A DNA stretch of 64,000 nucleotides from Streptomyces albipurpureus (GTDB taxonomy: Bacteria; Actinomycetota; Actinomycetes; Streptomycetales; Streptomycetaceae): the NCBI RefSeq assembly GCF_023701525.1, contig NZ_JAMQAW010000025.1:275735-339734 (forward strand), in the 5' to 3' direction. Below the pieces are notes generated by a model that saw only the letters and a program-made list of their open reading frames with translations, ran no database searches and was not told the DNA's origin. Each line of letters starts with the position of its first letter. Within the stretch, counting starts at the first letter, position 1. Both the position numbers and the translations under genes were made by a program. This document shows, piece by piece, positions 41,209 to 50,458 of the stretch.

Positions 41209-41283
41209 CAGTCCGATCCGGGTACGGCGCGGAACCGGTCCAGGGACGGCGCAGTCCGATCCGGATACGGCGCGGAACCGGTC
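41209..41283. repeat. Two 32-bp direct repeats upstream of the SGNH gene
   Basis: CAGTCCGATCCGGGTACGGC and its remaining 12 bases (41209-41240) recur at 41252-41283 with a single G/A difference, 43 bp apart. They lie between the ROK stop (41326) and the SGNH start, in a 409-base gap (40917-41325). A third fragment TCCGGATAC follows. Nothing else clear is present there. They may be operators or a small duplication. Confidence 0.7.
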
Positions 41284-41325
41284 CGGATACACAGGAGCCG
41301 GAAGGACGTCGGACCAACGACGTCG

Positions 41326-47932: not shown

Positions 47933-48814
47933 TCAGCGTGGTGGTGCGCTGCCGGAGAGCGGGCCCAGGAGCCCGACCTCGTAAGCAAGTCGACCGACGG
48001 CTTGGGTGAAGAACATGTCCCGTTCCGCCACTACCCGGTTGAACTGACCGAACAGCTCAAATGAGATCAGCCCGAACAACTGCGACCAGGCGGCCACCAG
48101 GGCCACCACGACAGATGGGGGGAGATCAGGGGCCAGTTGGGCGGTGAGTCGCTCCGCCTCGGGGCGCAACTCTTGATCAAGGGGCGGCAGGGCCAGGCCA
48201 CGGGTGCGATGGGCATCGCGGACGATGGCGATCATGGCCATGCCCACTCTGGCTGCGGGGCCGACGGTATCCATCGGGGCGGTGTAGCCGGGCACCGGGG
48301 AACCGTAGATCAGTGCGTACTCATGGGGGTGGGCCAAGGCCCAGGCACGGATGGCCGAGCAGAGCGCGGTCCAGCGGGCGCGTTGGTCCGTGAGGGGGCG
48401 GGAGGAGGAATCGGAAGAGCCAACAGGGGATGCGGGCGCCCCGGAGGTACGAGTGGCAGCCGCGGGGGCGGGGGCGGGGGCCGAGGCATCCGGGGCCACG
48501 GATGTACGGGGGGCGCCAGGGGCGCTAGGGGTGGCGCCAGGGATGGGGGCGGCGCCAGGGATGGGGGCGGCGAGCGCGGACTCGGCGGCTTGGCCGACGG
48601 CGTCATAGGCGTCCATGATCAAAGCAGTGAGGAGATCATCGCGGCTGGGAAAGTAGCGGTAGAGCGCCGAGGACACCATGCCCAGCTCACGGGCCACGGC
48701 GCGCAGCGAGAGCTTCGCCGCCCCCTCCGCGGCGAGTTGCCTCCTGGCCTCGTCCTTGATGGCGGCGGTGACTTCGACTCGGGCTCGTTCCCTGGCCCCA
48801 CGGATCTTGGTCAT
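47933..48814 (-). CDS. TetR-family transcriptional regulator
   Basis: About 293 residues. The N-terminal TetR HTH spans about 14-60 (IKDEARRQLAAEGAAKLSLRAVARELGMVSSALYRYFPSRDDLL). A 60-residue Pro/Ala linker (PIPGAAPIPGAT...) interrupts the start of the ligand-binding domain, which resumes with RWTALCSAIRAWALAHPHEYALIYGSPVPGY (the WHG-type). The linker is unusual in length and is coded by short DNA repeats. ATG 48814. The gene faces a deazaflavin-dependent nitroreductase gene across a 618-base region with operator-like sites and a heptamer array. Confidence 0.88.
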   Translation of the reverse strand: MTKIRGARERARVEVTAAIKDEARRQLAAEGAAKLSLRAVARELGMVSSALYRYFPSRDDLLTALIMDAYDAVGQAAESALAAPIPGAAPIPGATPSAPGAPRTSVAPDASAPAPAPAAATRTSGAPASPVGSSDSSSRPLTDQRARWTALCSAIRAWALAHPHEYALIYGSPVPGYTAPMDTVGPAARVGMAMIAIVRDAHRTRGLALPPLDQELRPEAERLTAQLAPDLPPSVVVALVAAWSQLFGLISFELFGQFNRVVAERDMFFTQAVGRLAYEVGLLGPLSGSAPPR

Positions 48815-48907
48815 GGAAACAGAGTGTGCCACGTTCCAGAGCAGTGACCAATAACGAGACTGTCGTACCGAAACACGAGCGGCGCACTCAAAGAAGAGCG
48901 ATGAGTT

Positions 48908-48947
48908 GAAGCAAGATCGATGCACTGAAGCAAGAGCAGTGCACTGA
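48908..48947. promoter_or_regulatory. Operator-like direct repeats upstream of the TetR gene
   Basis: GAAGCAAGATCGATGCACTGA (48908-48928) recurs with 3 changes as the sequence at 48927-48947 (period 19). The second contains GAGCAGTGC (48934-48942); its reverse complement GCACTGCTC occurs twice near 49250-49312. About 95 bases upstream of the TetR start, so autoregulation is inferred. Confidence 0.6.
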
Positions 48948-49001
48948 GTGACTCCGCCGATTCAGTTCCGTTCGCCGGGCAGTCCCCGACGCTGAGCCGG
49001 C

Positions 49002-49127
49002 GCTCCGGGCTCCGGGCTCCGGGCTCCGGGCTCCGGGCTCCGGGCTCCGGGCTCCGGGCTCCGGGCTCCGGGCTCCGGGCTCCGGGCTCCGGGCTCCGGG
49101 CTCCGGGCTCCGGGCTCCGGGCTCCGG
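49002..49127. repeat. Eighteen perfect copies of the heptamer GCTCCGG (VNTR)
   Basis: The stretch 49002-49127 is exactly 126 bases, 18 uninterrupted copies of a 7-base unit. It lies in the TetR/nitroreductase intergenic region between operator-like sites. Copy number is expected to change by slippage, changing the distance between the sites by 7 bp steps. The unit also produces an open frame coding for a repeated 7-residue peptide by chance; no gene is called. Confidence 0.95.
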
Positions 49128-49248
49128 GAAGGCGTAGCACGCCCACAATCATTGACCGCATGCGCAAGGTCGCGAAGGGCCCGAGCGCCGAGCTCCCAGA
49201 GTTCGGATCGGCTCAGCCGATCACCAGCCAGAGCATCATTCACTTTAT

Positions 49249-49315
49249 AGAGCACTGCTCTTGATTTAGAGCGTCGATCCGGTCACACTGATCTCAAGCG
49301 AGAGCACTGCTCACG
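49249..49315. promoter_or_regulatory. Two GAGCACTGCTC operator-like palindromes
   Basis: GAGCACTGCTC occurs at 49250-49260 and 49302-49312. The first continues into TTGA so that GCACTGCTCTTG is identical to the reverse complement of part of the TetR-proximal repeat. They lie 121-183 bases upstream of the nitroreductase-like start and on the other side of the heptamer array. Probably TetR operators. Confidence 0.65.
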
Positions 49316-49432: not shown

Positions 49433-49882
49433 ATGACACAGACGCACTACATCAAGCCCAACCGCATCGACACCATCATCAACAAGGCGATTGGTTGGCT
49501 CGCCCGGCATGGCGTGAGCCTGATGGGCACCGCCGAGCTTTCCGTGCGCGGTCGCACCAGTGGCGAGTGGCGGAGCATCCCCGTCAACCCGCTCCCCTAC
49601 GAGGGCGGCCCTTATCTGATCTCCGCCCGTGGCGAGTCCCAGTGGGTGCGCAATATGCGGGCAGCGGGCGGCGGGCAGCTCAAAGTGGGACGGAAGGTGC
49701 AACAGTTCACCGTCGTGGAACTGGCAGACAACGAGAAGCCGGCGCTCCTGCGCACCTATCTGGAGCGCTGGGGCTGGGAGGTGGGCCGCTTCTTCGGCGA
49801 TATCAACGCCAAGTCGTCGGATGAGGAACTACTGGCCGCTGCCCATCGGCACCCGGCCTTCCGGATGACGATCACCCATTGA
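49433..49882 (+). CDS. Deazaflavin (F420)-dependent nitroreductase/quinone reductase family protein
   Basis: A 149-residue Ddn-type split beta-barrel protein: KPNRIDTIINKAIGWLARHG, ELSVRGRTSGEWRSIPVNPL, GGPYLISARGESQWVRNMRAAGG and HPAFRMTI at the end. Mycobacterial homologues reduce quinones or nitro compounds with F420H2. A stress or detoxification role under the divergent TetR repressor is inferred. ATG 49433 with TGGAG 7 bases before it is preferred over the upstream in-frame start. Confidence 0.88.
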   Translation: MTQTHYIKPNRIDTIINKAIGWLARHGVSLMGTAELSVRGRTSGEWRSIPVNPLPYEGGPYLISARGESQWVRNMRAAGGGQLKVGRKVQQFTVVELADNEKPALLRTYLERWGWEVGRFFGDINAKSSDEELLAAAHRHPAFRMTITH

Positions 49883-50458
49883 GCGGCACCCGAGCGAGCG
49901 ATGGCCCGCCATCGACCAGCCCCATGGGCGATGAGTGACGAGTGATCGAGGAGCGACGGACCGAACCGCGAGGAAGCAGAGGAAGCAGAGGAAACAAACG
50001 GCACTCCCGCAGAGTCACCCAGCGGCCGGAACCATCGCAGAGTCACCACAGCAGGACCACCGGCACAGAACCGCCAGTCCAGAACCACCGGCACAGAACC
50101 ACCAACGCAGAACAGCTGTCACAGAACCGCCGTCATGACCACTGCCGCGGCCCTTGCCACCCGAAGGCCACCGCAGAGACCACCGCAGAGACCACTGCGT
50201 ACAGCACCGTTTAGGCGCGTACAGCCACCGCAGGTCCCACCCGCATCGCAACAACCACCACAGAAGCAGCGCCAGAGTGGATCAGGGAACCGCCGAACCC
50301 ATCTCGTCGAAGTTCCGGTACCCCACGGTCACGGCGGTGCCGTGGCCTCCATCGGTGGGCGAATCGACGTCAGGGAGCCGAGCCAAGCACGGCCCTCATC
50401 GCCCCGTCGGCCCCCATGTGGGTGCTTCGGCTCGGCCATCGGGGCCATCGGCGAGTGG
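49883..50458. repeat. Low-complexity, repeat-rich gene-free region
   Basis: This 576-base gap has GAGGAAGCA-type direct repeats (about 49971-49998) and an array of loosely spaced CAGAACCACCG/CAGAGACCACCG units (about 50040-50200), clearly lower in GC and A-rich. Frames here read as low-complexity (repeated TT, RH, HRT) and lack ribosome sites, so no protein is called. The spacing is irregular, which excludes a CRISPR array. Confidence 0.7.

Follow-up and report, generated by a model that had tools for sequence, protein, structure and literature searches.

Divergent TetR regulators of Streptomyces were tested by Ahn et al. 2012 (PMC3511530). All five of the tested regulators with intergenic gaps of less than 200 bp repressed the neighbouring gene; among four regulators with gaps of more than 200 bp, three showed no regulation of the neighbour and one activated it. 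A gap of less than 200 bp is a predictor, and not a definition, of divergent repression (PMC3511530). Repeats in promoter regions form a second body of related work. Heptamers that form G-quadruplexes are known in Xanthomonas and Nostoc (PMC4692102), and heptameric direct repeats are bound by SARP-type regulators in Streptomyces (PMC5930380).

Here we analyse a 64-kb stretch of DNA (64,000 nucleotides, hereafter the window) in which a TetR-family regulator gene (tetR) and a divergent F420H2-dependent quinone reductase-like gene are separated by a gap that contains a heptamer array. A sequence-only reading had proposed that the array lies between operator-like sites and could act as a built-in tunable spacer of the divergent promoter.

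The heptamer array and its neighbouring genes

The heptamer GCTCCGG is present as 18 exact units at positions 49002-49127, confirming the number of copies that had been claimed, and the perfect period-7 run extends for one further base to 127 bp (Table 1). As the next longest perfect period-7 run in the window is only 16 bp long, the array is not a product of chance. It is located, as had been described, inside the intergenic region of the divergent tetR and reductase-like genes. Its units follow one another without spacers, and it lies about 120 bp upstream of the likely -35 element of the reductase promoter. The span of 48908-49315 that had been singled out takes in operators as well as the array; it did not mention the tetR-side sites at 48838 and 48876, the weaker one at 48914 or the further array that the genome carries at another locus. 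Minus-strand open reading frames across the array read as GARSPEP repeats because three units of seven bases keep the frame; this coding reading was rejected.

The TetR protein contains both the DNA-binding domain (PF00440, 45 bits) and the C-terminal domain (PF13305, 88 bits), and its best sequence matches among solved structures are Rv1816 (5d1r) and SCO4313 (2oi8). The reductase-like open reading frame scored 42.7 bits against TIGR00026 (NCBIfam, deazaflavin-dependent reductase-like), which is below the cut-off of 46.35. At 618 bp, the gap between the two genes is the longest among the 106 gaps compared and is not one of the short gaps (less than 200 bp) that make up 83 of 102 distinct gaps.

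Other repeats were observed in the window. An Ala/Pro-rich, repeat-encoded linker (48400-48600) lies between the DNA-binding and C-terminal parts of the TetR protein, with 18-bp repeats at 48528-48572, and in many relatives the best match spans only the part before or the part after this linker. Imperfect 14/28/42-bp repeats are located at 50044-50135, in the space separating the reductase gene from a convergent geranylgeranyl reductase-like gene, and an imperfect 22-bp tandem repeat (3.6 copies) is located at 41213-41290.

Table 1. Positions of genes, candidate regulatory sites and the heptamer array in the window.
Feature	Position	Strand	Support
TetR-family regulator gene, 293 aa, ATG at 48814	47933..48814	-	TetR_N and TetR_C_33
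Operator-like site A beside tetR, first 19-bp lattice unit, AGAGCAGTGACCAATAACG	48838..48856	+	matrix score 25.7
Degenerate unit of the 19-bp lattice, two steps (2 x 19 bp) from site A	48876..48894	+	score 10.1, just above background (9.0)
Weak unit of the 19-bp lattice, four steps (4 x 19 bp) from site A	48914..48932	+	score 6.6, below best background
Operator-like site named in the sequence-only reading, AGAGCAGTGCAC..., 5 x 19 bp from site A	48933..48951	+	score 11.0, slightly above background
Array of 18 GCTCCGG heptamers and one extra base, containing 18 GGG tracts	49002..49128	+	tandem-repeat and period-7 analysis
Operator B (candidate), palindrome AGAGCACTGCTC, abuts likely -35	49249..49260	+	B-C pair conserved in 97/106 gaps
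Likely -35, TTGATT	49261..49266	+	TTG(A/C/G)(C/T)T here in 77/97 aligned cores
Likely -10, CACACT, 17 bp after -35	49284..49289	+	CACACT in 81/97, NANACT in 93/97 aligned cores
Operator C (candidate), AGAGCACTGCTC, just downstream of inferred transcription start	49301..49312	+	52 bp from B
F420H2-dependent quinone reductase-like gene, ATG at 49433	49433..49882	+	PF04075, 26.1 bits (cut-off 22)

Conserved candidate operators and promoter-like core

Relatives of the reductase were compared at 110 loci, comprising 30 from genomes of the genus (including that of the window) and 80 from other genome contigs (79 of which are Streptomyces). A divergent TetR N-terminus was found at 106 of these loci, and the other four (L021, L026, L044 and L106) were dropped. 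The 106 gaps include 102 distinct ones, the four duplicates being removed only for counts of distinct gaps. Two GAGCASTGCTC-like palindromes 52-54 bp apart (three or fewer mismatches in 22 positions), corresponding to operators B and C in the window, are present in 97 of the 106 divergent gaps; the nine gaps that lack such a pair at this threshold were left out of the core counts. At L015, the first full palindrome lies 306 bases from tetR, and this locus is not among the longest tetR-to-B distances in the B-C listing. A DNA search against 100 relatives matched the B-C stretch (about positions 435-503 of the gap query) in many genomes of the genus, and it was also matched in five genomes from the same order outside the genus (G394, G396, G397, G404 and G405). 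An alignment of the gaps without the array placed large gaps arbitrarily, and no boundaries were drawn from it. The genome collections contain one genome per species, and the closest orthologue seen is 84% identical.

The operator-like sites named in the sequence-only reading were located at 48934 (GAGCAGTGC) and at both 49250 and 49302 (GAGCACTGCTC). Scores for the tetR-side sites (Table 1) come from a matrix built without the window, for which the best plus-strand background score is 9.0 (window positions 1-47000). Counterparts of site A exist at relative loci L012 and L043. A generic sigma-70 scan returned no promoter at the likely -35 and -10 elements, and generic promoter and terminator scans of the region were empty. 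The motif AGAGCANTGCTCT (two or fewer mismatches) has four matches in the window compared to 1.48 expected, and six of 100 shuffles reach four. As the motif count alone is unremarkable against window shuffles, the support for the operators is their conservation. Judged on this basis, the candidate operators look real and conserved, and the description of a divergent TetR promoter with operator-like sites on both sides of the array is supported by the B-C pair and by its matches outside the genus.

In the source genome, an exact copy of GAGCASTGCTCTTG is found only at operator B. There are five places with one mismatch, two of which are at the locus itself. The remaining three are single sites (on contigs C2, C24 and C117) compared with two for a reversed control, so this genome shows no evidence of additional target promoters above the chance level.

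A 19-bp lattice of operator-like sites

We identified 314 sites in the 106 gaps that match GAGCASTGC with at most one mismatch. The distances between pairs of these sites peak at 53 bp (77 pairs), 19 bp (51), 38 bp (35), 72 bp (25) and 91 bp (24), and in 200 mononucleotide shuffles there was never more than one pair at any distance. When the window and duplicates are removed, 75, 48, 35, 25 and 24 of 330 pairs are found at 53, 19, 38, 72 and 91 bp, respectively.

Of 96 other gaps, 55 place operator B 41-43 bp from the tetR start, and additional distances fall at 60-62, 79, 100, 119 and 138 bp. Altogether, 78 of 93 distinct gaps have a tetR-to-B distance on 42+19n (±1), as do 26 of the 41 that do not belong to the n=0 class (binomial p of about 8e-12, uncorrected for relatedness among the gaps). 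A period scan of the 22 unique tetR-to-B distances gave no special place to 19, for which R is 0.36 compared with 0.39 for 15. When all distances are scanned, 19 is the highest of periods 7-30 (0.79), although 18 is near (0.77) and the first class dominates. The gaps of L036 and L117 contain perfect 19-bp tandem units (3.6 and 2.9 copies, respectively). This spacing suggests that TetR dimers may be tiled along the lattice, and the GAGCA(C/G)TGC motif, taken with the 19-bp spacing, gives a testable model of how a TetR_C_33 regulator of an F420-linked enzyme may bind DNA. The lattice may be a more interesting result than the array.

On the tetR side of the array in the window, Tandem Repeats Finder (TRF) reported a 19-bp period at 48894-48947; the lattice positions 48857 and 48895 have matrix scores under the listing threshold of 4. 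The tetR-to-B distance in the window is 435 bp (residue 17), which is off the 19-bp register. Subtracting the 126-bp array leaves 309 bp, with a residue of 5 as for 43 bp, which is back on the register. The chance of such a return is roughly 1 in 6 to 1 in 19; we regard it as a coincidence worth noting, and phase across the array could matter.

Distribution of the array among relatives

A tandem scan detected no period-7 array in the other 105 tetR-reductase gaps (101 distinct), and as few as ten bases of GCTCCGG repeat could not be found in any of them. The longest tetR-to-B distance elsewhere (among the 97 gaps with a B-C pair) is 316 bp, versus 435 bp in the window. Where a tetR-side site was found upstream of the first full palindrome, it most commonly lies 19 bp (23 cases) or 38 bp (18 cases) away, so a long loop would be atypical. 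Gaps of some other species contain different simple repeats, which suggests that simple repeats arise independently at this position. A 9-bp repeat (CCTCATGCA, 5.8 copies) was observed in the L087 gap and 6-bp repeats were observed at L015 and L045. Another heptamer array (GCCGGGT, 5.9 copies) was observed at L034, outside the divergent gap, where it adjoins the reductase gene on its tetR-distal side.

Four or more exact units of GCTCCGG are present in 39 of 392 genomes of the genus (including the source genome), while a reversed-pattern control was positive in eight. We examined the context of 22 arrays of 35-145 bp (the two arrays of the source genome and 20 hand-picked from 17 genomes, and not a random sample) using a rough gene finder, which placed eight in tandem gaps, seven in convergent gaps and five in divergent gaps, with two unassigned. 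These classes are approximate, as the gene finder missed tetR in the window (taking the next gene on the same strand as the left neighbour) and three arrays (L124, L126 and L133) switched class between two runs.

The source genome (9.37 Mb, 138 contigs) has perfect GCTCCGG arrays of three or more units in only two places according to an exact search, each with 18 units. The second array, on contig C2, is 130 bp long with the same heptamer in the same orientation, and sits between convergent SDR and 2'-5' RNA ligase genes. Matches to the ligase were found in 61 of 61 genomes, and 30 of these loci were examined. The SDR gene is within the fetched stretch at 28 of the 30 loci (27 of 29 when the source genome is excluded), and none of the other 29 loci has a heptamer array. 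When the whole gap was used as a DNA query against the source genome, with 5 of the 41 first-look candidates scored, the hits apart from the gap were the C2 array and a 77% match in C95. A shared mobile origin of the two arrays was considered and rejected, as the similarity in this search is confined to the array part. Both arrays look like lineage-specific expansions at gene pairs that are otherwise conserved.

The original proposal thus survives in part. Operators do appear to flank the array in a divergent TetR promoter, but the view of the array as a built-in tunable spacer is not supported: it is absent from the other 105 gaps, in which spacings of 19 and 38 bp are the commonest, and the heptamer is present in unrelated places that include convergent gaps.

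A model for the locus and alternative explanations

We consider it probable that the locus encodes an autoregulated TetR repressor that also controls the reductase, and that the heptamer array is a lineage-specific repeat, probably neutral or mildly modulating, in a lengthened spacer. A TetR_C_33-type repressor would control its own gene and the divergent reductase-like gene via GAGCA(C/G)TGC(TC) operators. The positions of the sites suggest that binding by TetR at A, B and C would block polymerase locally, with B at the likely -35 element and C just past the inferred start of the reductase promoter, and with A and the lattice copies on the tetR side. The spacer between the two clusters is about 400 bp in the source lineage, where 19-38 bp is the norm elsewhere, and a heptamer microsatellite rich in GC would have expanded within it, presumably by slippage. 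As the array is upstream of the inferred reductase promoter and probably also of the tetR promoter, it is probably neutral or only mildly modulating. An effect of the array mediated by a transcript is unlikely if the tetR promoter is on the tetR side of the array. The 618-bp gap, the unremarkable motif count, the three single one-mismatch sites elsewhere in the source genome (about as many as for the reversed control) and the failure of the period scan to favour 19 count against the repressor reading. The gap exceeds 200 bp, yet the B-C promoter core is intact. Read in this way, the regulatory arrangement is conserved, and the eye-catching repeat resembles a later arrival.

It is possible, if on balance unlikely, that the count of 18 units is partly a product of assembly and that the true array is longer. 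The source genome is a 138-contig draft whose two unrelated arrays are almost the same length (127 and 130 bp). Contig C3 (L125) of another genome of the genus, G156, ends 134 bp inside a GGGCTCC array. A check of 24 ends of 16 readable contigs revealed that two pairs of contig ends in the source genome (G000) share exactly 65 bp, an overlap shorter than the array. Against this, reads roughly 150 bases long could reach across the array. The lengths of 127 and 130 bp had suggested a collapse at a 127-base word, which we rejected as the shared contig ends are 65 bp. As the array is longer than the 65-bp overlap, it was probably closed by other means, and the number of 18 units is provisional.

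We give little weight to the idea that the array acts through a structure of its own, either a G-quadruplex or a hairpin, that might for instance insulate the divergent promoters from each other topologically. The plus strand has 18 GGG tracts separated by CTCC loops, more tracts than in any other G4-type motif of the window, and both strands are predicted to fold better than 200 of 200 shuffles (z-scores of -4.5 and -7.3); the heptamers of Xanthomonas and Nostoc provide a precedent (PMC4692102). However, a GC-rich repeat of such a unit folds anyway, allowing for quadruplexes left the predicted hairpin fold unchanged (under RNA parameters) and the arrays are not limited to divergent gaps.

We also think it very improbable that the array is a slippage-prone spacer across which a TetR loop bridges the tetR-side and reductase-side clusters, with the number of heptamers setting helical phase and therefore expression. 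As three units of 7 bp span 21 bp, or about two helical turns, this loop model predicts an output with a period of three units. It would be consistent with the operator-like sites that flank the array, with the perfect units expected of recent slippage and with a precedent in Neisseria meningitidis, whose nadA promoter carries a repeat tract between NadR operators (PMC2791445). However, the other 105 gaps manage without an array, site A and operator B elsewhere most often lie 19 or 38 bp apart, each side of the array keeps operator-like sites of its own and the heptamer is found in convergent gaps too. If the heptamer did tune expression, it would represent a repeat-based dial outside host-adapted pathogens. 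A scheme in which binding is cooperative along a 19-bp lattice that expands and contracts across the genus by unit duplication, and in which heptamer slippage shifts the phase of two lattice blocks so that the promoter of a soil actinomycete steps in the manner of nadA with three-unit periodicity, seems just as improbable.

Comparison with known systems

Among the papers matched by exact-text literature searches with the palindrome, none concerns Streptomyces or TetR by its title. Searches on Streptomyces repeats and phase variation, heptanucleotides and quadruplexes, and on divergent or tandem TetR operators, yielded no described equivalent in the titles and abstract beginnings among the matches listed, and the same was true of the titles and abstract beginnings for TetR with 19-bp or direct repeats; all of these searches covered part of the literature.

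The heptamers bound by SARP-type regulators are few in number, lie a few bases apart and are next to the -35 element. The window instead has 18 contiguous units, about 120 bp upstream of the likely -35 element. The likeness to the SARP system is the presence of heptamers in a Streptomyces promoter region (PMC5930380).

The array resembles the GGGNATC-type repeats of Xanthomonas and Nostoc in being an intergenic G3N4 heptamer with a variable number of units (PMC4692102). Those repeats are found at numerous loci in each genome and favour four units, whereas the source genome has two perfect 18-unit arrays. The feature of at least four consecutive G-tracts is shared (18 GGG tracts in the array), and wide genomic dispersal is not.

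The locus resembles the nadA and NadR system in that a simple repeat tract is bracketed by repressor operators (PMC2791445), which in the window are candidates recognised by motif and conservation. The effect of repeat number was studied in that system, whereas the tract in the window is known from its sequence and is absent from 105 other gaps.

The divergent TetR regulators of Streptomyces share with the locus a divergent layout, several palindromic operators and local repression as the default model (PMC3511530). The candidate operator sequence of the window is absent from the table passage of that study, and the window differs from those regulators in its 19-bp lattice and 618-bp gap.
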